Part shown: one piece after another, positions 7,551-35,946 of the stretch
Numbering within the stretch: the first letter of the stretch is position 1
How the letters are laid out: each line of letters begins with the position of its first letter
Assembly: GCA_016125005.1 (NCBI GenBank)
Contig: WGMQ01000045.1
Coordinates: 1-64,000, forward strand
Source of the DNA: a bacterium
Lineage (GTDB): Bacteria > Sumerlaeota > Sumerlaeia > SLMS01
Length of the DNA: 64,000 nt
Direction of reading: 5' to 3'
Made by a program: the position numbers and the translations under genes
The notes under the pieces: generated by a model
Database searches by the model: none
What the model saw: the letters and a program-made list of their open reading frames with translations, nothing else
What the model was told of the DNA's origin: nothing

Positions 7551-9179
7551 ATGACTACGACAGCCACCGAGTCGAAACCCGAGAAGGGCATCCGGATGCC
7601 GCCCACCTTGGCGATTCTTGCGGTCATCCTCTTCTTGGCGGCAATCCTGTCACAGGTTCTTCCCCCCGGATCTTTCAAGCGCGAGCAGAAGACTTTGCGC
7701 AAAGCCGGCGTCCTGATGAAGGAGTATGTGGTTCAGCCCGGCGATACTGTTGAATCCATCAAGGTCACCCAGGGCGATGATGCAACGGCGGATCGGGGGC
7801 TGATGGAGGCGGACGGAAAAACGCCACTGACCGCGGTCATCGCGGGCACGACGATCTCGATCCCTGTCCATCCCACCGGCACGCGCGAGGTCGTGGTTCC
7901 CGGCACTTTCGAGTATCAGGATCGACGCACCTACGAAAGCTCGGGAGACCGTGCCTTCTCCTTCCTCGGCGGGTTGCTGATGGCTCCCCTTCGCGGCTTT
8001 CAGGATAAGGCCGACGTCATCGCCTTCATCCTGCTCATCGGTGGAGCATTCGGCATCGTGCTGGGCACCGGATCGATCGACATCCTGCTGCGTTATGCGG
8101 TGGAGCGGTTGGCTCAGGTCGGCGCCACGTCGCTCATCATCCCGGTGCTCATGCTGCTCTTTAGCCTGGGAGGCGCGACGTTCGGCATGAGCGAGGAAGT
8201 CATCCCGTTCGTGATGATCACGATCCCTCTGGCGATTCGGCTCGGCTACGACACGATCACCGGCTTGTGCATGAGCTTTGTGGCGGCGGGACTCGGATTC
8301 GCAGGTGCCTTTTTCAATCCGTTCACGGTGCAGATCGCCCAGGCCATTTCCGACCTGCCGCTGGCGAGCGGCGCCCCCTATCGGGTGTTCGTGTGGATCT
8401 CCGTCACGTTGATCGGCATTGTCTATACGATGTGGTGGGCAGGGAAAGTGAAGCGGGACCCGACGGTGTCGCCGACCTACGAAAATGATCGCCAGTTGCT
8501 GAGCACCTACGAACATTCACATGAGGGGACACGCATCCGAGCGTCGGACATCGGCGTCCTGCTGACCCTCGCGGGCTCGATCGTGCTCATCATGTGGGGA
8601 GTGGTCTACAAGGGTTGGTACATCGAGGAACTGAGCGCAGTCCTGCTGGGGGCGGGAGTACTCAGCGCGATTGTCTCACGCATGGGCCTGACCCGGGCGG
8701 CGGAACTTTTCGCGCGTGGTGCGGCGGACCTGAGCGGGGCGGCACTCGTTGTTGCCTTTGCCGCGGGAATCCTCATCATCATGAAGGACGGTCAGGTGCT
8801 GGATTCCATCCTCTACTGGATCTCTGGAATGCTGGAGGGGACACACCCGATCGCCGGCTCGAGCCTGATGTTCATTTTTCAGTCATGCCTGAACTTCTTC
8901 GTGCCGTCCGGCAGCGGACAGGCGGCGATGACAATGCCGATCATGGCGCCGTTGTCTGACCTGATGGGAATCTCCCGCCAGACCGCCGTGCTCGCGTTTC
9001 AGTTCGGCGATGGTTTCGGGAACATGATCATCCCGACCTCGGCGGTGACAATGAGCGTCCTTGGCATCGCGCGAATCCCGTGGGTCACCTGGGCGAAATG
9101 GATCCTGCCGCTGGAGGCGATCCTCCTCGTGGCTGGCTGCGTCTTTCTGGCGATCGCGGTTCTGATTGGCTACCAGTAA
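7551..9179 (+). CDS. YfcC/DcuC-type amino-acid or peptide (anti)porter
   Basis: YfcC-type 'GGAFGIVLGTGSIDILLRYAVERL' and 'GGATFGMSEEVIPFVMITIPLAIRLGYDTITGL' segments; polytopic. Confidence 0.78.
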   Translation: MTTTATESKPEKGIRMPPTLAILAVILFLAAILSQVLPPGSFKREQKTLRKAGVLMKEYVVQPGDTVESIKVTQGDDATADRGLMEADGKTPLTAVIAGTTISIPVHPTGTREVVVPGTFEYQDRRTYESSGDRAFSFLGGLLMAPLRGFQDKADVIAFILLIGGAFGIVLGTGSIDILLRYAVERLAQVGATSLIIPVLMLLFSLGGATFGMSEEVIPFVMITIPLAIRLGYDTITGLCMSFVAAGLGFAGAFFNPFTVQIAQAISDLPLASGAPYRVFVWISVTLIGIVYTMWWAGKVKRDPTVSPTYENDRQLLSTYEHSHEGTRIRASDIGVLLTLAGSIVLIMWGVVYKGWYIEELSAVLLGAGVLSAIVSRMGLTRAAELFARGAADLSGAALVVAFAAGILIIMKDGQVLDSILYWISGMLEGTHPIAGSSLMFIFQSCLNFFVPSGSGQAAMTMPIMAPLSDLMGISRQTAVLAFQFGDGFGNMIIPTSAVTMSVLGIARIPWVTWAKWILPLEAILLVAGCVFLAIAVLIGYQ

Positions 9180-9207
9180 GGCCAGCCCGCAGCTTCCAAT
9201 CGACAAG

Positions 9208-9243
9208 AAGACGGCGCCGGGTGCTCAGACGCGGCGCCGTCTT
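9208..9243 (+). terminator. Bidirectional intrinsic-type terminator between convergent genes
   Basis: AAGACGGCGCC-loop-GGCGCCGTCTT followed by TCG; lies between stops at 9179 (+) and 9264 (-). Confidence 0.7.
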
Positions 9244-9263
9244 TCGTTGATGCGCTGCGTCGA

Positions 9264-18093: not shown

Positions 18094-18897
18094 ATGTCGA
18101 TCGAGCAATCGGGTACGCCGGATAGGATCCGAGCGACCAATTTGGTGAAGGAATACGGCTCAACCCGCGTGGTTGATGGCGTGGACATCGAGATCAAGGC
18201 CGGTGAGATCGTCGGGTTGCTTGGGCCCAACGGCGCGGGCAAGTCCACAACCTTCAAGATGCTGGTGGGATTCACGAAGCCGACCTCGGGCAAAGTGCAG
18301 TTCAATTCCGAGGACATGAGCCGCCTGCCGATTCACCTGCGCGCCCGCCTCGGCATTGCCTACCTGCCTCAGGAAACCAGTGTCTTCCGCAAGATGACCG
18401 TGCGCCAGAACCTGATGGCTGTGATGCAGGCCCTTGGCTACTCCAAGAAGGAAATCCGTCCGCGGATGAACGAGTTGCTAGAGGAGCTGGGCATCGGCGA
18501 GTTGAAGGATCGATTGGCGGAGAAGCTTTCCGGTGGCGAGAAGCGCCGTGTCGAGATCGCCCGGGCGCTCATGACGAAACCGAAGTTCCTGTTCCTCGAC
18601 GAGCCGTTTACCGGCATCGATCCGGTCACCGTCGAAGACATCCAGGGGATCGTCAAGAACCTCTGCGCCAAGGGACTGGGCCTCCTCATCACCGACCACA
18701 ACCTGCGTGAAACGCTGCATATCACGCGGAGGAGCTACATCCTCATCGACGGAAAGGTTGCTGCCTCGGGTTCGGTGAAGGAAATCCTCGACAGCAAGAT
18801 CGTTCGCGAGCGCTTCTTCACCCAGTCAATCGTGGAGGACGTGTCGCGGCGCCGTGTGAGTAATTCCGCCGAGGATATCCCCCGGCTCGACGAATAG
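18094..18897 (+). CDS. lptB: LptB-like ABC transporter ATP-binding protein
   Basis: GLLGPNGAGKST; LSGGEKRRVEIARAL; FLFLDEPFTGIDPVTVEDIQGIV; ITDHNLRETL. Confidence 0.8.
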   Translation: MSIEQSGTPDRIRATNLVKEYGSTRVVDGVDIEIKAGEIVGLLGPNGAGKSTTFKMLVGFTKPTSGKVQFNSEDMSRLPIHLRARLGIAYLPQETSVFRKMTVRQNLMAVMQALGYSKKEIRPRMNELLEELGIGELKDRLAEKLSGGEKRRVEIARALMTKPKFLFLDEPFTGIDPVTVEDIQGIVKNLCAKGLGLLITDHNLRETLHITRRSYILIDGKVAASGSVKEILDSKIVRERFFTQSIVEDVSRRRVSNSAEDIPRLDE

Positions 18898-18930
18898 ACA
18901 CCGTCCCATCTCTGTTTGTGGAGGGGTTCC

Positions 18931-20448
18931 ATGTACGCCCTTTGGGCCAACATCTTCGACAATCCGATCCTTGTCCGGGAACTCCGCCGCCGCATGCGCG
19001 GCAAGGCGCTGCTGTATAGCATCATCAGCTACCTGTTCCTGATGACTCTCGCCACGATCATCGTAATGCTGAGCTACTCCCCCAGTTCCTTCGAGCGTCC
19101 CAGCACCGAGACGCTCCAGCGCATGAAGCACACGGGCGAAGTCATGTTCAACGCCATCACCGCTATTCAGGTTCTGTTGGTGCTGATCATCGCACCGACC
19201 ATCACCGCGGGACTGACCACGGGCGAGAAGGAACGACAGACCTTCGACTTCCTCCGCGTAACGACGATCTCGCGTTGGATGTACATTGTGGGCTGCTTCC
19301 TCTCCACCTGCTTTTACGTGGCGCTGGCGCTGCTCTGCGCGCTCCCACTCCAGGCAGTGACCTTCCTTTATGGCGGCGTCAGTCTCGGCGATGTGATGGG
19401 CACCTTCATCGTCCTGCTATGCAGCAGCGCCGTTTTGTCGGCCTTTGGACTGTTCATTTCCTCAGTGACCGAGAAGACACGCACAGCACAGGGCATGGTG
19501 ATTTTTCTGGTGTTTGGAATCCTGTTCGGCGGCCTGATGCTGGTGCAGTCTTATCGCTCAGTATTCCAGGGGGCGACCTCGCTCCTTCCTGCGGCGGCGG
19601 GCGGGTTGTTTGTGGCGGGACTTCAGATCCCCGCTTGGGCAATCGTCCCGGCGACACTCGCGGTCTTTGCCTTCCTCTTCCTGCTGCTGGCCGCGCGCAA
19701 ACTCTTCGAGTCCGACGAGGCGCGCGCGCTCAACCATTGGCAGTATCTGGCGGCATTCGCAGCAGTGATGGGGATCTCGCTGGGGATCCTCGGCGCAAAC
19801 CAGTTCACCAACGAATTCGTCGAGTGGTCCGTGCTGAGCGTCGGTTACGTGATGCTCCTCGCCGGTGTGCTGATCTTTTCAACAGGGCGCATGGAAGTGG
19901 GTGATGAGGTCTGGCATCTCAAGCGCCTCGTTCCCGTGCTTCGGCCCATCGATCAGACAGTGCCCTTTCTGGTGCTGGTCGGAGCGATCTGGTGGACTCT
20001 GGTTGGGATGATTCCGCAGCACACGGCCACGCCCCAACTGAAGGCGGATGCCGTGATGGCATTCCGGCTCTGCTCCACGGCCTCATTCGTTTTTCTCGTC
20101 GTCCTGGGACGATTCCTGACAGCGACGATGCGCTCCTCAGCCAAGGCTTTCCGAGTGACGCTGGCTGTCGTCTGCTGCCTGACCTTCCTGATCCCGCTGC
20201 TGTCCGGTGCCGGGCGCTTCGCGCTGGATTTGGACCCGCTGTGGAGCACCATCGAGTGCTTATCCCCACTCGGGATGATTACCAGCGCCGTTTACGGCAA
20301 CACGGGCGGGGCGAACTACGTGGGTCCTGCGACGGTCGCATCGGTGGCGCTTCTGGTGGTTGGCGCGGTACTCGGATTGATCGGAGAAGTCCGCCGCTAC
20401 CAGCGGTGGAAGCACTTTGACTATCACTACGACATGCCAGCGCGATGA
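18931..20448 (+). CDS. ABC-2-type transporter permease
   Basis: Multi-TM; 'NPILVRELRRRMRGKALLYSIISYLFLM'; 'TAGLTTGEKERQTFDFLRVTTIS'. Confidence 0.75.
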   Translation: MYALWANIFDNPILVRELRRRMRGKALLYSIISYLFLMTLATIIVMLSYSPSSFERPSTETLQRMKHTGEVMFNAITAIQVLLVLIIAPTITAGLTTGEKERQTFDFLRVTTISRWMYIVGCFLSTCFYVALALLCALPLQAVTFLYGGVSLGDVMGTFIVLLCSSAVLSAFGLFISSVTEKTRTAQGMVIFLVFGILFGGLMLVQSYRSVFQGATSLLPAAAGGLFVAGLQIPAWAIVPATLAVFAFLFLLLAARKLFESDEARALNHWQYLAAFAAVMGISLGILGANQFTNEFVEWSVLSVGYVMLLAGVLIFSTGRMEVGDEVWHLKRLVPVLRPIDQTVPFLVLVGAIWWTLVGMIPQHTATPQLKADAVMAFRLCSTASFVFLVVLGRFLTATMRSSAKAFRVTLAVVCCLTFLIPLLSGAGRFALDLDPLWSTIECLSPLGMITSAVYGNTGGANYVGPATVASVALLVVGAVLGLIGEVRRYQRWKHFDYHYDMPAR

Positions 20449-20519
20449 ATCCGTCGCGCTCAAATGATTGAATAAGCCCCGATGGAAACCGTAGGGTCTC
20501 CGAGGAGGGAAATAACCCC

Positions 20520-20705
20520 ATGAACAGACTGCTTTTGCTGATCGTCGCCTTCTTCCTCCCCCCAGTGGCCGTGGCCTTGGTGGATGGAATTGGGTTTCAC
20601 TTCCTGCTGAACATCATCCTATGGATCTGCGGATGCGGGGTCGCGGGCATCGTTCACGCCTTCATCGTCGTTCTGATGAAGGACGTCGAGATTACTAACA
20701 CCTAG
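20520..20705 (+). CDS. YqaE/Pmp3 (UPF0057)-family small membrane protein
   Basis: 61 aa, two TM: FFLPPVAVALVDGIGFHFLLNIILWICGCGVAGIVHAFIVV. Confidence 0.75.
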   Translation: MNRLLLLIVAFFLPPVAVALVDGIGFHFLLNIILWICGCGVAGIVHAFIVVLMKDVEITNT

Positions 20706-20708
20706 GCC

Positions 20709-21185
20709 TCACTGACGATAACGGCGAAATGCTTCCTTGAGCAGGGCGGCGCATTCCTCGGCCAGGACGCCGCTGTAGACCTCGAGTCGATGGTTGAATC
20801 GTGGGTTGGCCACAATATTCGGCTCGTGGCCCGGCGTACAGGCACCCCAGCGCGGATTGCTGGCGCCAAAGACCAGCCGGGCAATTCGAGCGTGTAGCAG
20901 AGCACCCGCACACATGGGACAGGGCTCCAGCGTCACATACAGGGTGGCGCCGTCCAGCCTCCAATCCCCTACCCGGTGGGCCGCCTCACGCAGCGCCAGC
21001 ATCTCCGCGTGTGCCGTTGGATCGCCCAGGGTTTCCTTCCCGTCGTGCGCGCCGCCAAGCAACTGGCCGTCTCGAACCACCACGGCACCGATTGGTACTT
21101 CTCCCCTATCGGCAGCGAGACGGGCCCACCCAAGGGCCCGCCTCATCCAGTAATCATCACCGTGTGGAACTGCGGGATCGGTCAC
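20709..21185 (-). CDS. tadA: tRNA-specific adenosine deaminase
   Basis: HAEMLALREAA and PCPMCAGALLHARI deaminase motifs. Confidence 0.92.
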   Translation of the reverse strand: MTDPAVPHGDDYWMRRALGWARLAADRGEVPIGAVVVRDGQLLGGAHDGKETLGDPTAHAEMLALREAAHRVGDWRLDGATLYVTLEPCPMCAGALLHARIARLVFGASNPRWGACTPGHEPNIVANPRFNHRLEVYSGVLAEECAALLKEAFRRYRQ

Positions 21186-23065
21186 AGCGGCGGCTCGATG
21201 CTCGCAACGGTCCGACGCTCGATTGTGACTGGAGCCAGTCGCTCGACGACTTTCCCCGCCTTGAGGGTGACGCGCTGAACCGTCATGCGAACGGGTGTCA
21301 CCTCAAGAACGATCGCGTCGAACTCAGACCCGGATGAAAGAACGATCCGGCGCGGATCAGAGCTGGGGATGTAGGACGGCACCGGCGTTGGTGACGGGAT
21401 GGGAGACGGAGTGGCGAACTCGAGCGGCTTGCTTCCAAGCACGTCCGTGGCGGGGGTTGGCGTGGGTGTGTTGCGCAGTACCTGGGCGGGCGGACTGAAC
21501 ATGCGGGTGAAAATCCGGCTCTCCCAGGGCCCGTCGATCGGGCGGGTCTCGACGATTCGGCCGGGGCGAGAGCGGTAGAAAACATTGGGAAGGCTCTGGT
21601 AGAAGCCGCGGGGGCGATCACGGATCGGTGAGGCATAGTGATAAATCACGGTGCCGAGGCCGCGGGACCGAACAGCCTCCACCTGGCGGCGGAACTGCTC
21701 GCTAAAGTTCATGTACCCCGCGAGGGAAATGATCGCCGAGGTATTGTACTGGTTGTTGCCCGCGAAGCCGGCCCAGGCGCGGATCGAGTCGTCTGGGGAA
21801 ACGCGCTCGTGCACCTGAAAGACCAGTTCGCTGACTAGGCCTTCACGCGCCCACGAGATCCAGTCAACCATCGAATCCTTGTAGGTGCTGGAGGCGATGT
21901 ACTCCTCGAAGGTATTCGGAGGCGGTCCGCTGGTCTCGATCAGGACGCCGACGGTGACATCGGGGCGGGCTGAAATGATGGTGTTTCGCAGGGAGCGAAT
22001 CAGCTGCGTGAGGCGGTCGCGACGCCATGCGGACCATACCGGGTCGTCCGCGGGGGGCGCCCCCTCGCCACCGACCGCCGCGCGGAAGGCCTTAACCGCG
22101 CCGGGAGAGTAACCCCAGTCTGCGCCGGGGTAGCGAACTCCTGTGAACAGATAACCGTCGGGGGCGATCTGCGTATCGATCTCGCGGACGATGGCGCTCA
22201 GATACCGCACTACATCCGGATCGCCCGGGTCCATGTAGATCACATTGTCGGGAGCGATCTCGCGGTCGTCGAGCGAGCGGTTGGCGTACTCGGGGAAGCG
22301 ACCGATGGGATTGCGGAGCGGAGGACGCCCGCCCGTTGCGGCCGCGTAGGCCGGCAACACGTTGACCACGGCGATCAGGCGCTTCTTCTGCTCTAGGCGA
22401 TTGCGCAGTGTACCCAGTGGGTTCGGGAACGCCGTACCGATGGACGGGAGGGACTCTTCCAACCCGGAAACATACGCCACACCGAGCACCGTCCGGACCT
22501 CGGCATAGACGCGGCTGAAGCCACCTGTGTTGATATCCGAGACCAGTTCCTCCAGCTGAACGCTGTTCTGGTAGCCGCGATCTGCCGCGAGCACGTAGAT
22601 GCCGCGGATCTCTCCTGACTCAAGGGGCACCGGCCTCAGCTGGACGAGGGGGATGTCGCTTAGGACCGCGGGGCGGTTGGAACCGGACGCTTCGAAAGGG
22701 TTGGTGGGCTGTGCAGCCGGGGTGGCAGCCGGCGAATCGAACGGATTGTTGGAGATGAAGGGAGCACCCGACTCGGCAGCGGAATCGGGGGAGCTGAAGG
22801 GGTCGGAGGACGGTTCGGCTGGTGTCGGCGTGGGCGTGGCGCTCTGCGCTCCGGGATCGGGCGCGGCGAAAGGATCATCGAATGGGTTGGGGCCTTGTGC
22901 GAATGCACCACCACCCAACAGCGCCACCATCAGGGCGCCCAGCAGTGGGCCTCTTGCACCACGAATCAGCCTGGACAAAATCACGGACTTCCTCCCGCAG
23001 GAAAAACTGGCAACCGCCGAAGCACTCGTTTGGCGAACTTCCTGACGGTCCTTATTGCCAACCAT
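21182..23065 (-). CDS. Glycoside-hydrolase-like protein (GHL10/DUF4015-type), exported, Pro-rich N-term
   Basis: 'GEIRGIYVLAADRGYQ', 'YMDPGDPDVVRYLSAIVREID', 'APDGYLFTGVRYPGADWGYSPG'; 4-bp overlap with tadA. Confidence 0.7.
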   Translation of the reverse strand: MVGNKDRQEVRQTSASAVASFSCGRKSVILSRLIRGARGPLLGALMVALLGGGAFAQGPNPFDDPFAAPDPGAQSATPTPTPAEPSSDPFSSPDSAAESGAPFISNNPFDSPAATPAAQPTNPFEASGSNRPAVLSDIPLVQLRPVPLESGEIRGIYVLAADRGYQNSVQLEELVSDINTGGFSRVYAEVRTVLGVAYVSGLEESLPSIGTAFPNPLGTLRNRLEQKKRLIAVVNVLPAYAAATGGRPPLRNPIGRFPEYANRSLDDREIAPDNVIYMDPGDPDVVRYLSAIVREIDTQIAPDGYLFTGVRYPGADWGYSPGAVKAFRAAVGGEGAPPADDPVWSAWRRDRLTQLIRSLRNTIISARPDVTVGVLIETSGPPPNTFEEYIASSTYKDSMVDWISWAREGLVSELVFQVHERVSPDDSIRAWAGFAGNNQYNTSAIISLAGYMNFSEQFRRQVEAVRSRGLGTVIYHYASPIRDRPRGFYQSLPNVFYRSRPGRIVETRPIDGPWESRIFTRMFSPPAQVLRNTPTPTPATDVLGSKPLEFATPSPIPSPTPVPSYIPSSDPRRIVLSSGSEFDAIVLEVTPVRMTVQRVTLKAGKVVERLAPVTIERRTVASIEPPL

Positions 23066-23237
23066 GCCGTGTCGGACAAGGGAAGAAAAGGAATTTGCAC
23101 CTCTCGGGGGGCAGAACCATAGACTGGCCCCACGCTGCTGATGATCAAGCTCGCTCGTTTTGATTGCGAGCAGTCCGCGGTGCCTCTAGGCTTGACGTCG
23201 ATTCACTACCCGCAAGGAGCGGTTTTGCCCCACACTC

Positions 23238-26200
23238 ATGTGCGAAAAAGACGCTCCTGACTCGACCCCAGCCCTGAATTCGCGGGCCATCGGTGAACTG
23301 CTCGAATCCGAGCGCCGCTATCGGTTGCTGGTGGACAACCTGAACGACGGGATCGTCATCAGCCAGAACGATCGCTTCATCTTCTTCAACCGGCGTTTTG
23401 CCGAGATGCTGGAGTACACCGCCGAAGAGCTCCGCAACCTGACGTACCATCACGTCTACACCGCGCGGGGGCTCGCCATCCTGATGGAACGGGGCGCTGC
23501 ACGCGACCGGGGGGAGGTTGTCCCGCCCCTCTACGAAACAGAACTTCGCGCCAAGTCAGGCAGGATCGTCCACGTCGAGGCGAATGTCACCATCATCACC
23601 TACGAGGGCTTGCCTGCGACGTTCGCCATCGTCCGGGACATCTCCATCCAGAAGCGGATCGAGTTCGAACAGGACTGCTTCTCGGAGCTTGCGGTCGGCC
23701 TCTCGAGCGCAGGATCGCTTGATGAACTGGCGCTCATTGTCCGTGACATCACCCAGCGCCTTTTCGGCTGGGATGCCATCTACCTCTCGTGCCGACTTTC
23801 AGGACGCACCCGCTTCTTGTCTCTGCTTCGCGTCGATAGCATCGACGGCGAGTTGGTTGAGCTGCCGAGCGCCGAGGTACATCTGCCGCATGACGGGTTC
23901 ATGTCGACGCTGGAGGTTGGGGTCGCCAAGCTGATCAACAGGACGCGTGAGGAAGCCGAGCCTGGGCTGCTTCCCTTTGGCCGGAAAACTCGACTGAGTC
24001 GCAGCCTCATGTTTGCTCCCCTGCATCGCAACGGCTCGCTGATGCTGGTTCTCTCGGTTCAGTCCTACACACCGAATCGCTACGGGCCCGTCGAGGCGGC
24101 ATTGCTCCAGCGATTCACCAACGCTCTCAGGCCGACTACCGAACGCCTGCTGGCGGAGCGGCGCTCGAACGCCTTTCTGGATCTCGGTCGAAAGCTGAGC
24201 GCATGCTCCACGCCCATCGAGGCAGCGCGCATTGTCGTCGAGGTCGCCGATCAGGTGGTTGGCTGGGATTCATGCTATGTCGATCTATACGACAGTGCAA
24301 CCGACCGTGTGGAGACGCTGTTGGTCATCGACCTGTTGGACGGCAAGCGCACCGAGTATCCGGTTTCCCACCACACCTACCCGCCCGGCCGATACATCCG
24401 GCATGTGCTGGAGCACGGTCCCACGCACTTGGAGAGGGATCAGGCCAAGGAGGGCAGCGCCCCGCAGGTGATGTTTGGCGACGTGACCCGATCCTCCGAG
24501 TCCATGCTCTTTGCGCCGCTCAAGTCCTATGGCAAGGTCGTGGGCTTCCTTTCGACGCAGAGCTACACCCCCAAGGCCTACGACGATGAGGACTTGGCAG
24601 TCGTGGATGCCCTCGCCAGCCACTGCAGCGCGGCGCTTCTCCGGGCCAGTGCTCAGAAGCAACTGCATGAGAGCGAGGAGCGATACCGCAAGGTGGCGGA
24701 AACGGTGCAGGCCGTCATCATGGGCCTGTCGAGCGACTTTCGGATCGTGGGATGGAATCGTCAGGCAGAGCGACTATACGGATACACCGCCGCGCAGATC
24801 ATTGGACGCCCCTACCTGGAAACCTTTACGCCGAAGGAGGAGCAGCTGTTCGTCCTCGACAGACTGCAAAGCGCCCTCACCGATTCCTCCCCCGGGGGAT
24901 TCGAAACGTCGGTCCATTGTCGCGATGGCTCACAGCGCATCATTTATTGGAACATTGCCCGCCAGCAGAACCAGATCACCGGCGACGTAACGTTGCTTTG
25001 CTGTGGCCAGGACATGACGGAGCGAAAGCATTGGGAGCGGGAACTCCAGATGAGCGAGGCCTACTTCCGCGCCATCGTGGAGGACCAGACCGAACTCATC
25101 GCGCGGTTCTTGCCGAGCGGCACCATCACGTTCGTTAACGAGGCGTTCTGCTCCTACTTCGGCGTGGAGCGCTGGCAGATTGTTGGGACGAACATCTTCA
25201 CGAGCGCCGCGCCGGGGTTCCGCCCCGGTCTGGAGCAGCATCTGTCGAGCCTGACAAAGGAAAGCCCGCTGGCGAGTGTGCAGCATAACTTTCGCGACCG
25301 AAACGGGGAACTCCGCTGGCAGGAGTGGTCCGACCGCGCCATCCACAATGAGACGGGGGAACTCCTCGGATTCCAGACGGTGGGACGCGACATCACGAAA
25401 CTTCGCGAAGCGCAGGAGGCACTTCGCCGCAGCCAGGAGCGTTACCTCAAGCTGCTCGAGTCATCGAGCGATGTGATCTTCCAGATCACAGCCGAGGGGA
25501 ATGTCGCCTACGCGAACCACGCCTGCAGGATGGTACTGGGCGAGGAACCCGCCGCGCTTATCGGCAACCCGGAACTCTTCCGTGGCCTGATCCATCCCGA
25601 CAGCATGGAGCGGCACCTGCGAAGCCTTCAGCTCTTCCGCGAGCGCCGCGAGGTCGCGTCGAGTTCCGAGCCTTTCCTGTGGCGGCGACGCGACGGATCC
25701 CTTGTCTATACAGAAAACCGCCTCGGCATTCTGAGTGGTGGTGAAGGCGAGGCGGCGAGCCTCCTCGCTGTATGCCGCGACGTCACGGAGCGGGTGGCGA
25801 TCGAAACCGAGCGGCGGGCCTTGGAGGGCCAGATCCAGCAGACGCAGAAGCTCGAGTCCATGAGCGTGCTTGCCGGTGGAATTGCCCACGACTTCAACAA
25901 CCTGCTGACGGGCATCATGGGCAACGCCAGCCTCGTGCTTTCGGACCTGCCTTCAAGCACGCCAGCACACGAACACACGAGCCAGATCCAAGCCGCAGCA
26001 CAGCGTGCGGCCGATCTGACGCGCCAGATGCTCGCCTACGCCGGCAAGGGTAGCTTCGTCGTCCGGCCCCTGCAGCTATCCAACGTGGTGCTGGAAATGA
26101 CCGGCATCCTGAAGACGGTCATCAGCCCGCGCGCACACATGGACCTGCAGCTGGATGAGAAAATCCCCAGTGTTCAGGCCGACGGGACACAGATCGGCCA

Positions 26201-27002
26201 GATCGTCATGAACCTCATGACCAATGCATCGGATGCACTCGAGGGGCACGATGGCTGCATCTCGCTCTCAACAGGCGTTCGCCATTTTGACGAGGCGGCC
26301 CTCGCCCCGATGCTCTTCGGAAGCCAGCGGGAACCGGGCGAGTACGTCTTCCTTGAGGTGCGCGACACGGGCTGCGGCATGGACGAGGCGACGAAGGAAC
26401 GCATCTTTGACCCGTTCTTCACACGCAAGCCGACGGGCCTCGTTGGCGGGAGAGGTCTCGGCCTCGCTGCCGTCCTCGGCATTGTCCGCAACCATCGCGG
26501 CGCCATTCACGTGGAGTCCTCGCCGGGCAAGGGCACCTGCTTTACGATCGTGCTTCCCAGAAGCCCCTACGAGGAACCGGCACCCCTTCTGCAAGAGCCG
26601 CCGCCCGAACCCGAGCCACTACGCTCAGGCACCATCCTGGTGGTGGACGACGAGAAGATCGTGCAGCGGGTGGCCCGCGGTGCTCTCGCGAGAGCCGGCT
26701 ACGACGTCCTGACCGCATCGGACGGAATCGAAGCGCTCGCCGTGTTGGAGGAACAGCCGAATCCGCCATCGGCGGTCCTCATGGACCTTCGCATGCCGCG
26801 CATGGATGGGCACACCCTCAGCGCAGAGATTCAACGCCGGTTCCCCGGGCTCCCTATCGTCGTGATGAGCGGCTACAGTGAGCAGGAAATGGAGTCCTCC
26901 CAGTGGGAGGAGTCCTCGTTCTTCTTCCTCGAAAAGCCCTTCAGCCCCGGTGATCTGGTCCGGATCCTCGACGAGGCGATCAGTTCCCAAACGGGGGGGT
27001 AA
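23238..27002 (+). CDS. Hybrid sensor histidine kinase: PAS, two GAF-like, further PAS, HisKA, HATPase, receiver
   Basis: Repeated PAS segments; 'GGIAHDFNNLLTGIMGNASLV' H-box; 'DTGCGMDEATKERIFDPFFTRKPTGLVGGRGLGLAAV'; receiver 'ILVVDDEK...VLMDLRMPRMDG'. Confidence 0.92.
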   Translation: MCEKDAPDSTPALNSRAIGELLESERRYRLLVDNLNDGIVISQNDRFIFFNRRFAEMLEYTAEELRNLTYHHVYTARGLAILMERGAARDRGEVVPPLYETELRAKSGRIVHVEANVTIITYEGLPATFAIVRDISIQKRIEFEQDCFSELAVGLSSAGSLDELALIVRDITQRLFGWDAIYLSCRLSGRTRFLSLLRVDSIDGELVELPSAEVHLPHDGFMSTLEVGVAKLINRTREEAEPGLLPFGRKTRLSRSLMFAPLHRNGSLMLVLSVQSYTPNRYGPVEAALLQRFTNALRPTTERLLAERRSNAFLDLGRKLSACSTPIEAARIVVEVADQVVGWDSCYVDLYDSATDRVETLLVIDLLDGKRTEYPVSHHTYPPGRYIRHVLEHGPTHLERDQAKEGSAPQVMFGDVTRSSESMLFAPLKSYGKVVGFLSTQSYTPKAYDDEDLAVVDALASHCSAALLRASAQKQLHESEERYRKVAETVQAVIMGLSSDFRIVGWNRQAERLYGYTAAQIIGRPYLETFTPKEEQLFVLDRLQSALTDSSPGGFETSVHCRDGSQRIIYWNIARQQNQITGDVTLLCCGQDMTERKHWERELQMSEAYFRAIVEDQTELIARFLPSGTITFVNEAFCSYFGVERWQIVGTNIFTSAAPGFRPGLEQHLSSLTKESPLASVQHNFRDRNGELRWQEWSDRAIHNETGELLGFQTVGRDITKLREAQEALRRSQERYLKLLESSSDVIFQITAEGNVAYANHACRMVLGEEPAALIGNPELFRGLIHPDSMERHLRSLQLFRERREVASSSEPFLWRRRDGSLVYTENRLGILSGGEGEAASLLAVCRDVTERVAIETERRALEGQIQQTQKLESMSVLAGGIAHDFNNLLTGIMGNASLVLSDLPSSTPAHEHTSQIQAAAQRAADLTRQMLAYAGKGSFVVRPLQLSNVVLEMTGILKTVISPRAHMDLQLDEKIPSVQADGTQIGQIVMNLMTNASDALEGHDGCISLSTGVRHFDEAALAPMLFGSQREPGEYVFLEVRDTGCGMDEATKERIFDPFFTRKPTGLVGGRGLGLAAVLGIVRNHRGAIHVESSPGKGTCFTIVLPRSPYEEPAPLLQEPPPEPEPLRSGTILVVDDEKIVQRVARGALARAGYDVLTASDGIEALAVLEEQPNPPSAVLMDLRMPRMDGHTLSAEIQRRFPGLPIVVMSGYSEQEMESSQWEESSFFFLEKPFSPGDLVRILDEAISSQTGG

Positions 27003-30000
27003 CCTGGTCGTGGAAGCTGACCGTCCGTGTGGGCGACCGACCTTTGAATTGATCGAGGGCCGTTAGTAGTTCCTCTGCCGATTCGTAGCGGTCTGCCGGG
27101 ATCTTGGCCAGCAGCTTCTCGATCACCCGCCAGAGGGTCATCTGGACGTCGGGGATGGGGCGCGGCGCCGTGAATTGGTGATGGTAGGCGATCGAACCCT
27201 TCACAAAGGGGGGCGTCCCCGCAAGCAGCTCGTAGAACATGACACCGAGCGAGTAGAGATCGCTGGCCTCCGTGATCTCGTTCCCCTCGAACTGCTCAGG
27301 ACTCATATACAGCGGCGTTCCGACGCCACCTGCCGTGGCGCCGCCGGTGGCGTCACTGTCACGGTTTCCGCTTTCGATGAGGGCAGCGATCCCGAAGTCG
27401 CTCAACTTCACGCGACCGGCCGAATTGACGAGGATGTTCGCAGTCTTGATGTCGCGGTGAAGCACACCCTCGCCGTGAGCGTGGGCAAGCGCGCGTGCCA
27501 CATCACGAACCACAGCGATGGCTTCCTCCTCCGAAAAGCGCCCGGACTTGGCGAGTCTCGATTTCAGATCACCTCCGCTGACGTACTCCATGCTGATGTG
27601 CTTGCGGCCGCTCTCCTCGCCAAAGTCATGGATGCGGACGATGTTCGGGTGGGCCAGCTTTCGCGCAGCCTTGGCTTCGTGACGGAACCGCGCAAGTGCC
27701 TCCTCATTGTTGGCGAAGTGCTCGGGGAGGATCTTGAGAACCACCAGTTCGTCCAACTCGCGATCGTAGGCCTTGTACACCACACCCATCGAGCCAGAGC
27801 CGATCTCCTCGCGGATGTCGTAGCGACCCTGGGCCCGGTTGGAAAGGGTATGGAGCACCTTGAGTCGTTGCGTGGACTCCTTGGTGTGGCGGGCCTGATC
27901 CTCGTGGAGCGACCGAAGCTGCTGCAGGAGCTCGCGTCGCGGGCCGCCCACCTCAATGGCTTCTGTCATGACCTGCGCTGCTGCAAGGTGCTCCCCGTCG
28001 TCGGCAAACGCGCGCGCAAGTCGCTGCATGAGGTCCAGCGATTCGGACTTATCGGACATCTTGCGGATGGTGGACTGGCACTTCAGCAAGGCTCCGGCGT
28101 TCAGTTGCAGCTCGGCCAGCATGCGCAGCGCCGCCTGGTTCCCCGGCTCAACCTTGAGAGCGATCTCGACAAGGTCGAAGGCGGACTCTTCGTCCGCGAG
28201 TTCCATGTAAATCGAGGCGCCCTCGAGGCACTCGGCAAGGCGCGGTGGGTTCTCCGCATGGATCTTCTGGGCCAGCACATCGGCGAACTCGCTCGCGATG
28301 TCGGTGTTCTCCGGAGTCTGCCGGTGAGCCGCCCGCAAGTCGTCAACCGCTTCGGTCAATTGGCCCGCGAGACGGAACAGCATTCCCCGTTCAATGCGGG
28401 GACGCGGGTTTTCCGGCGCGATGGCGATAAGGCGCTCGTAGAACTCGATCAACTGGGGATAGTGCTGCTGGTAGTTGGCGTGAACCCGGGCGAGGATCCC
28501 CAGCGCCTGCTCCACGCGCCCCGAGCGGATATTGACGTCCGCCAGCAGGAAGAGAATCTCCGGCGTCTTGGTGCTACCTTCGCGGATATTCTCGAGGAGC
28601 GCTGCGACCCGGGGGAGGTAGTCCGAAGTGGTTTCCATCAGTCGCATGAGGCGACGCGCACCCGACTTGAATGACCCCATGTTGAACTCGATGGCGGCCA
28701 GGTGGATCTGCAGGTCGGGGTTTATCGGGTCGATTCGCGCGGCCAACTCGGCGATCTTGAAGTTCTCCCGCGTTTGCTTGCCGAGACGAGCGTGTGTCTT
28801 GGCGAGTTCCAGGATGACGCTGTCGTCCTCCGGGATTTCCTCGACGAGGTTCGCCAGCAGGTCAGCGGCCTTCTGGGTCTCACCGGACTCGCCAAGGGCG
28901 GTGGCCAGCCAGCGGCGCACGCGCACGTTGCGAGGGAAGATCTCCGCGAGCACCTCGAGCAGCATGACGTCGTTGGCCGTGGCGGGTCTCCCCATGAAGA
29001 CGAGTTCCATTCCCGCAAGGAGCAGCGGCGGAGGCGGTCCGCAGGTATGCAGCGCCTCCTGCAGTGCTTCCACCAAGTCGGGCGACAGGGACTCGGCCTG
29101 GGTCACCGCCTGAATGCTGCGCAGCAGCGAGATGATTTCATCCTCGCTCTCGCCTTCGTCCATCATCCGCACCGCCAACTCGATGGCAGGGCGTGGATTA
29201 CCCTTGGCAGCAAAGCCTTCACCCCAGGCCCGCTCCAACTTGCGGTCGCCGGGAGCGAGGCGGATCGCCAGCGAGAGAAGCTGTAGTTTATCGGGATGGT
29301 CGATCTCGAGACCGACGAGTGTCCTCACGGTGCCGAGGATGATATCCGGCGGGCAGTCCGGTTCGCCCGAGGCCTCGAGGAGGACCTCGAGTTCGGCGCT
29401 GCCAGGTCCGGGCGGCTGGAGGAGGAAGCGGGCTACCCGCTGCAGCATGGTCGACCGCGTGAGGGCCGAGACCCCGCGGGGAAGTCCCGTCTGTCCACGC
29501 CAGCGCTCGAGCAATTCGCGGTACAGCGCAACGGCGTTGGACTCCTGGCCCAGATCCCACATCATGTCACCGCGCGCGATACGAAGGTCCACCGCATCGG
29601 GGTTGCGCCGACAGACGTCCCCCAGCAGTCGGACCGTATCCGCGTTGCGGATCCCATTCGCGATCCGGTGCCGGGCGAGACCCAGCGCGATCGGGCCGGC
29701 GTCCGGTGCCAGCAGATATGCTTCCTCGAAGACGGCGTGCAAGGTCATGGGCTTGAGCCCGGCCAGCCGGGCCAGTGCCCTGCGGGAAAAGTCCATGGAA
29801 AGGGCGCGCCCGCCCAGCTTCACCGCTTCGCGATCCGTTGGAGTCTTGGACAGGATGGCAACAACGGAATCCAGCGCACGCCCGGGGTCGCCTGTCTCGA
29901 GGTAGTGAAGGATCAGTCCCAACTGAGCCCAAACACACTCGGGAATCAGCGCAGCGGTTTGCGTGAAGAGTGCAATACTCTCGGCCGCCAGCGGTGCTTC

Positions 30001-31260
30001 GAAGTACAAGTGACGGGCGTAGATCCGGTGCACGCCCTCCATGAGGGTGCCCATGTCCACCGCCTTACGGTAGACGGCAATGGCGTCCGGGTCGGAGCGA
30101 TCGAACTCCGCATAGGCGGTTGCGAGCGGCAGGATGATGTCCTCGGACTCCACGCCTGAGGCACGGACCTCGTCGAAGATCGCGATGACGTCCGACCATT
30201 CGGAGCGGGAGGCATAGAACCGCCCCATCAGGCGCAGGTAGTTGCGGCGCTTGGGGCTGTGGGCGGAAGCCATCCGATAGATCGTGAGAGCCTCGTCCGT
30301 GAGAAGGCAGCGCTCGACGTACTGATCGGCCAGCATCTCCAGGGCGCGCAAATCCTCGGGGTGCTTGGCGACGTATTCCTCCACCACCTCCTCGTCCTCA
30401 TCCATCAGCACATCGCACTCCTTGATGGCTGACAGATAGCGTTCGAAGATGACCCGATGGCTGGGGTGTTCGGAATGGAGTTGGCGAAGGAGAGCCAGTC
30501 CCTGCTCGAAGAGTCGCGGGCTCTGCAGGAGACTCTCAGCCGCCCAGATCCGCAGATCGATCTCCTGCGGATTCTCCAGCGCAGCTTCCATGACGAGTGC
30601 GACGTTGGCGCCCGCACGGTCGTTTTCCGCGACGATGGCCTTGGCCAGGTGCAGATGGAACTCGCGCCGGTCCGGGTAGTACACAGTGGCCGAGCGCAGC
30701 AGGTCCTTCGCACGGGCGTCGACGCGCCGAAGGTCCAGAATGTTCACCGCCGCGTCGTGAAGGCAGCGGCCCATCAGATTGAAGGCGTCTTCCTCGGTAA
30801 TCTTGTCCGGCCAAACCCACTCGCGACCATCGGCGGGAAAGAATGGAAGTAGGGCCATGGCAGCCGACTCCCGGTCGGCGTAGTACTCGGCCTCATTTCC
30901 CAGGGCCTTCCGCTCGCGGAACAGACGAAGCCAGAGGTCGATCCGGGTAACCGACATCATCGCGGCGCGCTGCAGATAGGGGATCTCCTGGGCGGTAAGC
31001 ACGGGCTTGCGGAGCAATATCGCCACGATTTCTGTGAGCCAGTAGCTGTCGGAGGAAAGATTGGCCTCCGCGTGGAAGAGCAGTTCCAGCCGATCAATTC
31101 CTGATTCGTCGAACTGATCCTGGAGCCGGAGAACCGGCTCTCTGGCCTTGTCGGGGGGTTGGAGGCGATAGGCTGCGCGCGCTTCCACCACCGCCTGTTC
31201 CATCAACTGGCGGCGGGCCTGAGGATCCAGCAGCGACTTTCCAAAGCGAGGTACGCGCAT
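26980..31260 (-). CDS. Very large TPR-repeat protein with a C-terminal Ser/Thr protein kinase domain
   Basis: ~1100 aa TPR-like repeats then 'YDIREEIGSGSMGVVYKAYDRE', 'VLHRDIKTANILV', 'LSDFGIAAL', 'GTPLYMSPEQ'; start placed at the 'MRVPRFGKSL' Met to avoid overlap with tkt. Confidence 0.85.
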   Translation of the reverse strand: MRVPRFGKSLLDPQARRQLMEQAVVEARAAYRLQPPDKAREPVLRLQDQFDESGIDRLELLFHAEANLSSDSYWLTEIVAILLRKPVLTAQEIPYLQRAAMMSVTRIDLWLRLFRERKALGNEAEYYADRESAAMALLPFFPADGREWVWPDKITEEDAFNLMGRCLHDAAVNILDLRRVDARAKDLLRSATVYYPDRREFHLHLAKAIVAENDRAGANVALVMEAALENPQEIDLRIWAAESLLQSPRLFEQGLALLRQLHSEHPSHRVIFERYLSAIKECDVLMDEDEEVVEEYVAKHPEDLRALEMLADQYVERCLLTDEALTIYRMASAHSPKRRNYLRLMGRFYASRSEWSDVIAIFDEVRASGVESEDIILPLATAYAEFDRSDPDAIAVYRKAVDMGTLMEGVHRIYARHLYFEAPLAAESIALFTQTAALIPECVWAQLGLILHYLETGDPGRALDSVVAILSKTPTDREAVKLGGRALSMDFSRRALARLAGLKPMTLHAVFEEAYLLAPDAGPIALGLARHRIANGIRNADTVRLLGDVCRRNPDAVDLRIARGDMMWDLGQESNAVALYRELLERWRGQTGLPRGVSALTRSTMLQRVARFLLQPPGPGSAELEVLLEASGEPDCPPDIILGTVRTLVGLEIDHPDKLQLLSLAIRLAPGDRKLERAWGEGFAAKGNPRPAIELAVRMMDEGESEDEIISLLRSIQAVTQAESLSPDLVEALQEALHTCGPPPPLLLAGMELVFMGRPATANDVMLLEVLAEIFPRNVRVRRWLATALGESGETQKAADLLANLVEEIPEDDSVILELAKTHARLGKQTRENFKIAELAARIDPINPDLQIHLAAIEFNMGSFKSGARRLMRLMETTSDYLPRVAALLENIREGSTKTPEILFLLADVNIRSGRVEQALGILARVHANYQQHYPQLIEFYERLIAIAPENPRPRIERGMLFRLAGQLTEAVDDLRAAHRQTPENTDIASEFADVLAQKIHAENPPRLAECLEGASIYMELADEESAFDLVEIALKVEPGNQAALRMLAELQLNAGALLKCQSTIRKMSDKSESLDLMQRLARAFADDGEHLAAAQVMTEAIEVGGPRRELLQQLRSLHEDQARHTKESTQRLKVLHTLSNRAQGRYDIREEIGSGSMGVVYKAYDRELDELVVLKILPEHFANNEEALARFRHEAKAARKLAHPNIVRIHDFGEESGRKHISMEYVSGGDLKSRLAKSGRFSEEEAIAVVRDVARALAHAHGEGVLHRDIKTANILVNSAGRVKLSDFGIAALIESGNRDSDATGGATAGGVGTPLYMSPEQFEGNEITEASDLYSLGVMFYELLAGTPPFVKGSIAYHHQFTAPRPIPDVQMTLWRVIEKLLAKIPADRYESAEELLTALDQFKGRSPTRTVSFHDQVTPPFGN

Positions 31261-31498
31261 TGCGAAGCAGGGCCTCCGGGAGCCATGTTGCCGCGCGACG
31301 AGGCAGTAGGTGGTACATCGCGGGCAAGGGAGCCGGATGATCCAGCCGCGTTCGCTCCGAGGCAAGCCGAAGCTGGAGTTAACAACAGGTTTGACTTCAT
31401 GCCCAATCAAGTCGCTGACGGCAAGCTGCTGCGTCTTGACACAGCGACGCGCGGCGCCGTTCCCTAGCCATCTATTCGACGAAGGATTCTGAACATCC

Positions 31499-33550
31499 AT
31501 GAGCCAGAAGGCCCAGAACACGCAAATCACAGATAAACGCAAGGTCGACGCCGCCCTACTGCGGCGCCTTGCCAATACCGTCCGGGGACTTTCGATCGAC
31601 GCGATCGAGGCGGCCAACTCCGGTCACCCGGGGCTCCCCCTCGGATGCGCAGACCTCGCCGTCACGCTCTGGTACCACTTCCTTCGCTACAATCCCGCCG
31701 ATCCCCAGTGGCAGGGCCGCGACAAGTTCATCCTGTCCGCCGGTCACGGATCGATGCTCATCTATTCCCTCCTGCACCTCGCGGGATTCGACCTGTCCCT
31801 CGACGAGCTTCGCCGGTTCCGCCAGTGGGGCTCCAAGACCCCTGGCCACCCCGAGAACTTCATGACCCCCGGCGTCGAGACCACCACTGGTCCCCTCGGC
31901 CAAGGCTTTGCCACGGGCGTCGGTTTCGCCCTCGCCGAGAAGATGCTCGCCGCCCGCATCAATGAACCAGAAAACGCCCTGATCGATTCCTACGTCTACG
32001 GCATCGTGTCCGACGGTGACGTGATGGAAGGTGTGGCCATGGAGGCCGCCTCCTTCGCCGGTCACCTCAAGCTCGGCAACATCATCTATCTATACGACGA
32101 CAACGACATCTCGCTCGACGGTCCCACGTCACTCTCCTTCGGTGAGAACTCCGCCCAGAAGTTCCAGGCCATCGGCTGGCACGTTCAATCGGTCGATGGC
32201 TTCGACCATCAGGCCATCGCCGACGCGATCCTGGCCGCCCAGGCCGTCAAGGATCAGCCCTCGCTCATCATCTGCAAGACGGTGATCGGCTACGGCTCCC
32301 CCGCCAAGGCCGGCTCCAGCAAGGCCCACGGCAGCCCGCTCGGCAAGGACGAGGCGAAGGCCACCAAAGAGAAGCTCGGCATCCCCGTCGAGCCCACCTT
32401 CAACGTGCCGCTCGCCGACCGCGAGGCATGGACCCAGCGCACCTCCGACCTGGCCCCGATCTATACAGAGTGGCAGAGCGCCCTGACACGCCTCCGCAAG
32501 GAGGCACCCGCCAAGGCCGCCGCGCTCGACGCCTACTTCAAGCGTGCGGTCCCAGCCAACATCGGCGACCTGCTGCCCAAGTTCGATCCGGCAAAGACCA
32601 TTGCGACCCGCAAGGCCAGCGAGGCCGTCCTCGGTGCGCTCGGCTCTGCCGTGCCCTGGCTCGTCGGTGGCTCCGCTGACCTTTCAGGCTCGACCAACGC
32701 CAAGATCGCCGGCGGTGGCGTCGTTAAGCCCGGTGACTTCGCCGGACGCGAAATCTACTTCGGCGTCCGCGAGCACGCGATGGGCTCCATCTGCAACGGC
32801 ATGACCCAGCAGGGCGCCTTCCGCGCCTATGGCGGCACGTTCTTCACCTTCAGCGACTACATGCGCGGGGCAGTGCGCCTCGGCGCCCTGATGCACGCGC
32901 CCTCCATCTGGGTGTGGACCCACGACTCCATCTTCCTCGGCGAGGACGGCCCCACGCACCAGTCTGTGGAGCACTTGGCCGCGGCGCGCTGCATCCCCAA
33001 TCTGGTCACGCTCCGCCCCGGCGACGCGAACGAAACCGCGTGGGCCTGGGTCGCGGCGCTTCAGCGCAGTGGCGGTCCGACCGCGCTGGTCCTGAGCCGC
33101 CAGAACCTGCCGACGCTCGATCGTGCCACCGGCGAGTTCAACGACGCCGAGGGCACCCTCAAGGGCGCCTACATCCTGCGCCCGGAAAACGACCCGACGA
33201 ACCTCCAGGGCATCCTCATCGGCACGGGCTCCGAGTTGTGCCTCTGCGTCGACGCCGCCAAGGTACTCGAGGACGAGGGCTACTCGGTCCGCGTGGTCTC
33301 CATGCCGAGCTGGGAGCTGTTTGAAATGCAGGACGCCGATTACCGCGAGGACGTGCTCCCCAAGGACGTCCCGGCGCGCGTGGCCGTGGAAGCGGGCGTC
33401 CGCATGGGCTGGGAACGCTACATCGGCCTGTGCGGCACCTTCGTGGGCATGTCCGGCTTCGGCGCCTCGGCCCCCGCGGAAGTGCTGGCCAAGGAGTTCG
33501 GCTTCACCACAGAGAACGTGGTCGCCAAGATGAAGGCGCTGATCCCCTGA
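31499..33550 (+). CDS. tkt: Transketolase
   Basis: '[20 protein letters not shown]', '[16 protein letters not shown]', '[18 protein letters not shown]', '[22 protein letters not shown]'. Confidence 0.96.
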
Positions 33551-33589: not shown

Positions 33590-33903
33590 GTGGCAGGTCC
33601 ACCCCGGGGCCGTGGCAGAAAGTGGCAGATATCCTCCACGTCCTCCCTTGGAAGACGTGGAGAGGCTTGTTGGCGACCCGGTAAATGGTTGGAGATTCCA
33701 CGGCGTTCCTGCACGATCAGCAGGTTGCGGATGCCGTCAAATGTGGTTGCGGATAGTTGCGGATAAACTCATCGGTTCTCCTGCTCCGCATGTGTGGATC
33801 CAACCTCGGACCCTTAGCAGAACGCGACAGATCGCATCCCTTCAGAGGTCGAGGCGCCGAGGTAGCAGAAAGCAGCAAAAACGGTAGCAGAAAGTAGCAG
33901 AAA
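33590..33903. repeat. Degenerate ~67-bp tandem array; each strong unit has decamers in a 10-12-10-10 layout, consensus GTNGCRGAWA
   Basis: Strong units: 33590 GTGGCAGGTC/33612 GTGGCAGAAA/33622 GTGGCAGATA; 33724 GTTGCGGATG/33746 GTTGCGGATA/33756 GTTGCGGATA; 33862 GTAGCAGAAA/33884 GTAGCAGAAA/33894 GTAGCAGAAA. Weak units at about 33656 and 33791. Confidence 0.75.
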
Positions 33904-33905
33904 GC

Positions 33906-35489
33906 TCATTCCCTGCTCTCCGCGAGCCTGTAAGCGGCCCCCTTGGTTGTCCCATCTTGAGTTACCAGAGGTGGCTTTCGATCCCGTAGCTCCTTCAGGT
34001 TCTTGCGGATGGTCGAGCCCGCTACACCGAGAGTGTCAGCCAGATCATCTGCCTTCGCTTCCCCGTGCTCCAGCAGGTACGCCACGATCTTGCGTTGGGT
34101 CTGGTTGAGGCCGGAGAGGAGATCGCCCTTCACCTCGAAGACTGGACGGCCTTGCGGCTTGAGCTTCTGGATGTCGTCACCGGGGCCGTGGAAGACGATC
34201 AGGAAGTGCCCGTCGCGCACGGACAAGGTCGGGCGCGGAAGACCCATGCCCGTAGTGGCGTTGATGATGCGGCGGATGCCGTCGCCTTGTTCCTCGATGC
34301 GCTCGAAGAAGCCCAGCCCGCGCGCAATGTTCGGGTTGCGGGAGCACGGCACATAGTCGAGCCGATTGAGCTTCTCGACCGTGAGCGGGGCGGGTGGTAG
34401 ACCGGGGCTCAGGATCTCGATCCGGTCCTCGAACTTATCGATGCGGATACACGATCCCTGGAGGTCGTAGTCCCGGTGCGCCACCGCGTTGACCACGGCC
34501 TCGCGAAGCGCCTCATAGGGGTACTCGTCGATCCGGACCTTCGAGAAGCCCTCCACGCGCGTCGTATGGCGCATGTTGCGCTTCAGGAAGGCGAATGCCT
34601 GCTCCACCGCGTGCGGAAGAGCCTCCTTAAGGTCGAGTCGGTCCAGTGGGTCGCCGCCGCGTTCCTTGCCACCCCATGCGTTGCAGGCCACGCGAACCTG
34701 CGGGAAGATCGCCTCGGGGTTTTGACCAAGAAGGAGCAGTCCACCAGAGGTCGGATGAAATCGGCCCGTCTCGTTGTTCCTCCAAATCAGACCACGGTTG
34801 AGGAGCGTCCGCCGCACCTCGTTCTTCTCCGGGTCCTCTTCGCTAATGGTAGGAAAGATGTCGTCCTCGAACTTGCCCGTGACGGCCTTCGTGAACGCCA
34901 GCATCAGCTGACCATCCAGATCACGATCATCCGCACGGTCGACCAAACGCGAGTCAAAATCCGATGCCTGAGCGATCGTCTGCACCGCGATGGCAGACTC
35001 CTGATCCGTCGGACGCAGGTCCCGCTTCTCAAGCTCGGCCAGCAGGACACTCCGAACCTCTTCCTTCAGTATTCGGTAGTTACCGAACCGCTTGTAGACA
35101 TGGGAATCGCGCACGGCCTCGAAGAAGGCCTTGATGTCGTCATCGCGGCGGCTGTCCTGGCTGCTGTCGCCCTTAACGAAGAAGTAGGTCGGCATGTCGC
35201 GCCGCTTGGCCTCTTGATACTCGCGATGCGTCGCTGACAGACCATCCTCACCCTTCCGGCCATACTCGAACCCGAGGATGCCGAGGTAGACCTGGCAGCT
35301 TCCGAGCGCCGAGAGATAGGCGTCCTGTGCCGGCAGCGATGAACCGGGCATCTGCTCGAACAGCACCGGACGAACATGGCGGCCCAGAAACGGGTCCGAC
35401 GCCACCAGTTCCGTCACGGCGATGCGCTCGTTCTCCAGCTCCTTCTGTACAGAGCTGACGAAGACACTGAGGCGCCGAGGTTCATTCAT
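33906..35489 (-). CDS. DUF4062 N-terminal domain + RecG-like/AlbA-associated ATP-binding domain + C-terminal wHTH
   Basis: 'RLSVFVSSVQKELENERIAVTELV...YLGILGFEYG' (DUF4062); 'YPYEALREAVVNAVAHRDYDLQGSCIRIDKFEDRIEILSPG' (HATPase_c_4); C-term HTH 'LNQTQRKIVAYLLEHGEAKADDLADTLGVAGSTIRKNL'. Confidence 0.82.
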   Translation of the reverse strand: MNEPRRLSVFVSSVQKELENERIAVTELVASDPFLGRHVRPVLFEQMPGSSLPAQDAYLSALGSCQVYLGILGFEYGRKGEDGLSATHREYQEAKRRDMPTYFFVKGDSSQDSRRDDDIKAFFEAVRDSHVYKRFGNYRILKEEVRSVLLAELEKRDLRPTDQESAIAVQTIAQASDFDSRLVDRADDRDLDGQLMLAFTKAVTGKFEDDIFPTISEEDPEKNEVRRTLLNRGLIWRNNETGRFHPTSGGLLLLGQNPEAIFPQVRVACNAWGGKERGGDPLDRLDLKEALPHAVEQAFAFLKRNMRHTTRVEGFSKVRIDEYPYEALREAVVNAVAHRDYDLQGSCIRIDKFEDRIEILSPGLPPAPLTVEKLNRLDYVPCSRNPNIARGLGFFERIEEQGDGIRRIINATTGMGLPRPTLSVRDGHFLIVFHGPGDDIQKLKPQGRPVFEVKGDLLSGLNQTQRKIVAYLLEHGEAKADDLADTLGVAGSTIRKNLKELRDRKPPLVTQDGTTKGAAYRLAESRE

Positions 35490-35946
35490 TCCTGGGCTCA
35501 TCCTTGGCCGGTTCGTCCTCGATCTCCACCCGCAGCAACCCCGCTCGGTACAGATCCAGCGCAATCTCCACCGGGAGTTCCTGCACCGTGTGGTGGCGCG
35601 AAGCAAGCTCGTGGAGGTCCAGCTCCAGATCGAGGGAAAGCTCCGCGACGGATGGGATGTCCTCCCGGTCCGCCGACGCGGACAGGCGGCGCAGGAGGTC
35701 CTTCATCGGCTCGTGGCTCAGGCTACGCAGGATGGCGCTGTCGGGGTGCGCGGTCTCGACCTCCAGAGCATCGCACAGCCGCAGGTAGTCGTGAACCGAA
35801 TAGTTCAGCGGCTCGTCCTTGTAGGCGCACAGATCCCACGCGGACTCGCGGGTGCATTGCAGGATTTCCTTGATCGTATCGACAAGTCCCAGTGAACCGC
35901 CGAGCGCTTCGACGGCCGTGGTAAGGTTCTCGTATCGCTTGTTCAT
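35482..35946 (-). CDS. Hypothetical protein, translationally overlapping the DUF4062 gene
   Basis: 154 aa MNKRYENLTTAVEALGGSLG...; overlaps the next CDS by 8 bp; no family recognised. Confidence 0.7.
   Translation of the reverse strand: MNKRYENLTTAVEALGGSLGLVDTIKEILQCTRESAWDLCAYKDEPLNYSVHDYLRLCDALEVETAHPDSAILRSLSHEPMKDLLRRLSASADREDIPSVAELSLDLELDLHELASRHHTVQELPVEIALDLYRAGLLRVEIEDEPAKDEPRNE

Follow-up and report, generated by a model that had tools for sequence, protein, structure and literature searches.

What is the cluster of short direct repeats that fills the gap between two convergent genes in this bacterial genome, and is it tied to the gene whose stop codon it adjoins? Within the window (the whole 64,000-nucleotide stretch of contig WGMQ01000045.1 that was analyzed), three strong units lie on the + strand at positions 33590 to 33631, 33724 to 33765, and 33862 to 33903, with starts exactly as the first-pass annotation of this DNA had claimed. 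Each follows the layout X-N12-X-X, with decamer copies at 0, 22, and 32: unit 1 is GTGGCAGGTC-N12-GTGGCAGAAA-GTGGCAGATA (word GTGGCAG(NNN)), unit 2 is GTTGCGGATG-N12-GTTGCGGATA-GTTGCGGATA (word GTTGCGGAT(A/G)), and unit 3 is GTAGCAGAAA-N12-GTAGCAGAAA-GTAGCAGAAA. Read on the gene strand, these become TATCTGCCAC TTTCTGCCAC N12 GACCTGCCAC, TATCCGCAAC TATCCGCAAC N12 CATCCGCAAC, and TTTCTGCTAC TTTCTGCTAC N12 TTTCTGCTAC, respectively. Unit 3 ends 2 bp short of the stop codon of a gene encoding a DUF4062 protein.

The strong units stand far above chance. Their internal self-similarity scores were 24, 28, and 30 for units 1, 2, and 3 (maximum, 30), relative to a next-best score of 22 elsewhere in the window and a highest score of 21 in ten Markov-shuffled windows (640 kb). 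The paired-decamer pattern, allowing up to three mismatches, matched four times in the window against 0.35 expected, a count reached in no shuffle, so the layout far exceeded the shuffled-sequence control that had been named in advance as its refuting test. Exact matches in the whole 4.69-Mb genome were confined to the three strong units, and none was found in any other genome of the same class. The proposed search of the whole genome and of relatives thus returned a single locus here and nothing in the class, whereas the layout did recur in unrelated bacteria, as described below. Weaker units had also been proposed at 33656 and 33791. Each scored below 20 for self-similarity, and a position weight matrix of the decamer yielded, outside the strong units, only lone weak matches at 33688 and 33814. 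Since these candidate units do not stand out, the ~67-bp period claimed for the array is not established; the strong units are spaced 134 and 138 bp apart.

The coordinates confirm that the array sits between two convergent genes, namely, transketolase (tkt; 31499 to 33550, + strand) and the DUF4062 gene (33906 to 35501, - strand). The DUF4062 domain, a TIR-like NADase domain, was recognized by Pfam (PF13271, E = 1.1e-17), as was a C-terminal half composed of HATPase_c_4 and a DeoR/HTH_24-like winged helix; this protein is the probable reader of the array. In PADLOC, its ATPase part resembles regions of pAgo-associated SIR2 proteins, and we consider the gene a probable defense-like, anti-phage gene. 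Upstream, a gene for a 154-amino-acid protein with no family assigned (35482 to 35946, - strand) overlaps the start of the DUF4062 gene and likely belongs to the same operon. Single-sequence structure models of both proteins were uninformative (pLDDT of 35 and 40). Because the genes downstream of tkt differ among the family relatives examined, the DUF4062 module looks like an island. A separate feature of this part of the window is a 1,545-amino-acid open reading frame (26980 to 31617, - strand) that encodes numerous TPR repeats and, at the C terminus, a serine/threonine protein kinase domain.

A relaxed scan for the layout took in 386 genomes and gave matches in the window genome and in one other, G312, whose array (GTAGCGGATT-N12-GTAGCGGATG-GTAGCGGATT) is the sole X-N12-X-X array among the 385 other genomes. 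Between the stop codon of a homologue of the window protein (58% identity over residues 173 to 566, the ATPase-winged-helix part) and the start of this array lie only a few bases; the orientation is the same as in the window, and the word of the array nearly equals the window word. No homologue of the 154-amino-acid protein was found beside this gene. Directly upstream of it, a second gene encodes a full-length DUF4062-HATPase-winged-helix protein (37% identity) and has its own array at the stop codon, with a different word, ATCTTCCGAT, at 0, 11, and 32 (steps of 11 and 21). Further homologues in G312 have arrays of ATGTCGGATA and AATGGGGACA at the same place. The 0-22-32 spacing is common to the window and to loci L053 and L195. 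Past the array in G312 (L199, ~7725 to 9700), we also observed a row consisting of a small nucleotidyltransferase-like gene, a HEPN-like gene, a PIN-like fragment, and a HATPase_c_4 remnant, which suggests a hotspot for small mobile defense or toxin-antitoxin genes.

Arrays at stop codons were also found in a survey of 45 HATPase_c_4-type genes, fetched by protein similarity together with 200-bp flanks. A significant short-repeat array was present in the 3' 200 bp of 9 of the 45 genes and in the 5' 200 bp of 1. Among genes on the contigs that served as background, 21 of 264 passed; of these, 18 come from the Flavipsychrobacter pieces, which are rich in repeats, and the remaining three include two that are the DUF4062 genes themselves. 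Genes whose products have a short winged helix at the extreme C terminus had an array in 8 of 19 cases, versus 2 of 32 for the others (P = 0.003, Fisher test, with winged-helix classes assigned by eye and post hoc). Many family members have no visible array, some of them with the same kind of winged helix; the link between gene and array is recurrent but not universal. The homologue search within one phylum covered 10 genomes, and a plasmid search with a winged-helix-only protein query returned no match.

Later samples added arrays on plasmids. On Streptococcus respiraculi plasmid NZ_CP022681.1, the stop codon of an ATP-binding gene (HATPase_c_4, winged helix) gives way at the very next base to 15.6 perfect copies of TTTATTGTAG with a period of 10 (L264:2461-2616), and a tyrosine recombinase gene comes after them. 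Three Hymenobacter plasmid genes, whose winged helices are 55 to 85% identical, have words that are related and share an 11-bp step: ATTGGCTCA at -10, +1, +77, and +88; ATGGGCTCC/AAGGGCTCA at -10, +1, +88, and +99; and A(A/T)GGGTTCA at +68 and +79. The array straddles the stop codon in two of the three, and the words occur inside gene bodies at a rate of 0 to 0.12 per 265 bp. An array of AATTGGGCAA likewise straddles the stop codon of a Rhodothermus gene.

Across 13 genes, winged-helix similarity correlated with word similarity (Mantel r = 0.49, P = 0.0003, with words chosen by eye). The correlation persisted with one Hymenobacter gene retained (P = 0.016). Since it weakened to P = 0.10 without close pairs, shared descent of the gene and its flank may explain part of it. 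These data support coevolution of word and reader, mainly among moderately close relatives; the first-pass proposal of coevolving paired sites is supported at the level of gene versus array, with a weaker signal once close relatives are removed.

Three readings had been offered for the array: a repeat RNA, a protein-binding array, and a recombination or insertion site. The second fits best, as does the early hint that the DUF4062/wHTH protein is the binder, given the G312 homologue beside nearly the same word and the separate arrays of other family genes there, and binding is what we infer from it. On balance, we lean toward reading the array as clustered cognate sites to which the neighboring DUF4062 protein would bind, with the C-terminal winged helix as its predicted reader; judged across the family, each protein may read a DNA tag of its own. 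The winged helix would read one decamer per protomer. With the three decamers of a unit 10 and 22 bp apart, three protomers would line up along almost one face of the helix, and the array as a whole consists of three such units. The purpose is the least certain part: we favor autoregulation or docking, in which the bound protein would stay close to the gene that encodes it, inactive or self-limiting, until infection disturbs this state and the NADase is released or assembled. If related gene-plus-array modules inserted here one after another and all but the last gene were lost, that could account for the divergence between the window units; the tandem homologues in G312 are suggestive of such an origin.

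A bolder version of this proposal strikes us as improbable. It would have the proteins of a probably anti-phage NADase/ATPase/winged-helix family dock on self-specific tags where their genes end. Bound to its tag, the killer enzyme would stay inactive, and loss of the tag or its invasion (degradation, replication, or displacement by phage) would trigger the enzyme, while word and reader drift together to give each copy a private address. In the open-licence literature searched, no paper was seen to describe stop-codon arrays for genes of this kind. HATPase_c_4 proteins occur widely, and their annotation usually goes no further than ATP-binding, RecG-like, or transcription regulator protein. 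Should many of them have a DNA target of their own at the stop codon, each target could be read from the sequence, which would permit a direct test of what these proteins bind.

Copies that lie away from such a gene count against the preferred reading and bear on the competing explanations. A scan of the GTDB genome collection with the pattern GTNGCRG-N15-(GTNGCRGAWA)x2 found three foreign loci, two in Flavipsychrobacter and one, L053, in a metagenome-assembled genome of another phylum (G063). The L053 unit, GGTTGCGGAT-N12-GTTGCGGATA-GTTGCGGATA, is almost identical to window unit 2, part of the spacer included, and is accompanied by two more, one complete with the 0-22-32 spacing and one partial. 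The array is at a single locus in G063, between SNF2 and KTSC genes (L164, contig C102, about 18170 to 31139), in an operon of SNF2 helicase, KTSC, AAA, DUF1156-like methylase, and DUF499-like ATPase genes (named by reading open reading frames) that looks like a defense operon. Despite the window-type array, no DUF4062/HATPase_c_4-type gene was found on the 45.6-kb contig of L053, and no integrase was seen by eye among its open reading frames. Array DNA compared with plasmids gave chance-level matches only. As a separate observation, GTAGCAGATA direct repeats on an IMG/VR contig (L070:1560-2000) flank an AT-rich stretch downstream of a primase-like gene, an arrangement that resembles a phage origin of replication with iterons.

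The main rival holds that the gene moves as a cassette and that the array serves as its recombination or insertion site, comparable to integron attC or phage integrase arm sites; the window units would then be scars of successive modules. It keeps this place because arrays occur at the 3' ends of mobile genes, as attC does, and can occur, as in L053, as word-specific arrays without the gene. The tandem G312 genes with an array each, the variable genes after tkt, and two viral matches next to an integrase (L055 and L056, one with a tRNA end) point the same way. However, no GTNGCRG arrays were found at the tyrosine recombinase loci fetched from three array-bearing genomes (the window genome, G062, and G063), so the arm sites raised by the viral matches are unsupported there, and no integrase of the kind expected for arm sites adjoined the array in the array-bearing genomes examined. 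By our estimate, the number of viral matches is about that expected by chance for a short pattern, and their integrase neighbors may be coincidental. Moreover, a bias toward genes with a C-terminal winged helix would be unexpected for a neutral cassette site. We therefore regard this explanation, one of those first offered, as unlikely, though still the strongest competitor.

Less probable still is a REP/MITE-like dispersed repeat that landed by chance between convergent genes, with no functional tie to the DUF4062 gene. Convergent intergenic regions tolerate insertions, and Flavipsychrobacter stenotrophus (L099 to L118 and L228 to L262) has a dispersed element: an intergenic repeat of roughly 200 bp, in >20 copies, with three to five GTGGCAG(NNN) decamers in tandem at its left, a variable middle of ~60 nucleotides, and CTGCCACTTTTNNGAAAAACTGCCAC at its right. 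Its decamer word is nearly the same as the window word. No DUF4062/HATPase_c_4-type gene was found beside the copies examined, and the repeat gave no Rfam match and no autonomous copy. But many copies were found only in Flavipsychrobacter; the window genome and G063 have one locus each, and arrays of different words recur at the stop codons of homologous genes. A simple MITE was set aside, as no autonomous copy was seen and the window genome has a single locus.

We consider it very unlikely that the array works at the RNA level, within the 3' untranslated region of the DUF4062 transcript, e.g., as a terminator or an autoregulatory RNA site. Its position just past the stop codon would suit such a role, as would the arrays that overlap the end of the reading frame in L222, L274, and L275. 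Nevertheless, the Rfam covariance models gave no match, and the repeat RNA suggested at first was dropped on this ground; there are no conserved hairpins, because the words are direct repeats, and the near-helical spacing of 10 to 12 and 20 to 22 bp points to DNA, as does the correlation with the winged helix. Finally, replication slippage alone, leaving unrelated short tandem repeats after several genes, could produce a perfect 10-bp tandem array such as that of Streptococcus but is the least probable explanation of all, since gapped 0-22-32 layouts recur with different words across phyla, the G312 array matches the window array in word and layout beside a homologous gene, and arrays favor the 3' over the 5' side by 9 to 1.

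Returning to a cognate binding-site cluster as the preferred explanation, several known systems offer comparisons. In integrons, each cassette gene ends in attC, a gene-specific site of folded inverted repeats with paired core boxes. The arrays resemble it in being gene specific and in marking the 3' ends of horizontally moving genes but differ in being direct repeats, with no recombinase among the neighbors examined; on inspection of the sequence, no conserved inverted arms were seen in the window units. REP sequences, which form palindromic hairpins, pair with RAYT transposases. Here too a gene is matched with a specific repeat that varies with it, and related repeats can be dispersed, as in Flavipsychrobacter, but the array has no palindromic REP hairpin and the adjoining gene is not a transposase.

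Plasmid Rep iterons and ParR centromeres are short direct repeats bound cooperatively by a protein encoded alongside. The window-type arrays are likewise short direct repeats about one or two helical turns apart, as seen in the 0-22-32 spacing of the window, L053, and L195, the period of 10 in Streptococcus, and the step of 11 in Hymenobacter. In contrast to iterons and centromeres, they are found where a DUF4062/HATPase_c_4 gene ends, either at its stop codon or spanning it, and the word changes from gene to gene; no role in replication or partition is evident in the window.

The closest comparison for the protein is Swarozyc, an anti-phage system formed by DUF4062, which was recently shown to be a TIR-like NADase; its auxiliary domain senses the phage portal protein, and defense proceeds through NADase activity and abortive infection (PMC13174449). 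Term searches of the accessible text of that paper found no DNA array (PMC13174449). Like Swarozyc, the window gene combines DUF4062 with a C-terminal auxiliary region that includes a winged helix, but this part of the window protein is HATPase_c_4 plus a DeoR/HTH_24-like winged helix. If the DUF4062 members do read their own arrays, the NADase would be tied to a DNA site, a mechanism of sensing or self-restraint unlike the portal sensing of Swarozyc.
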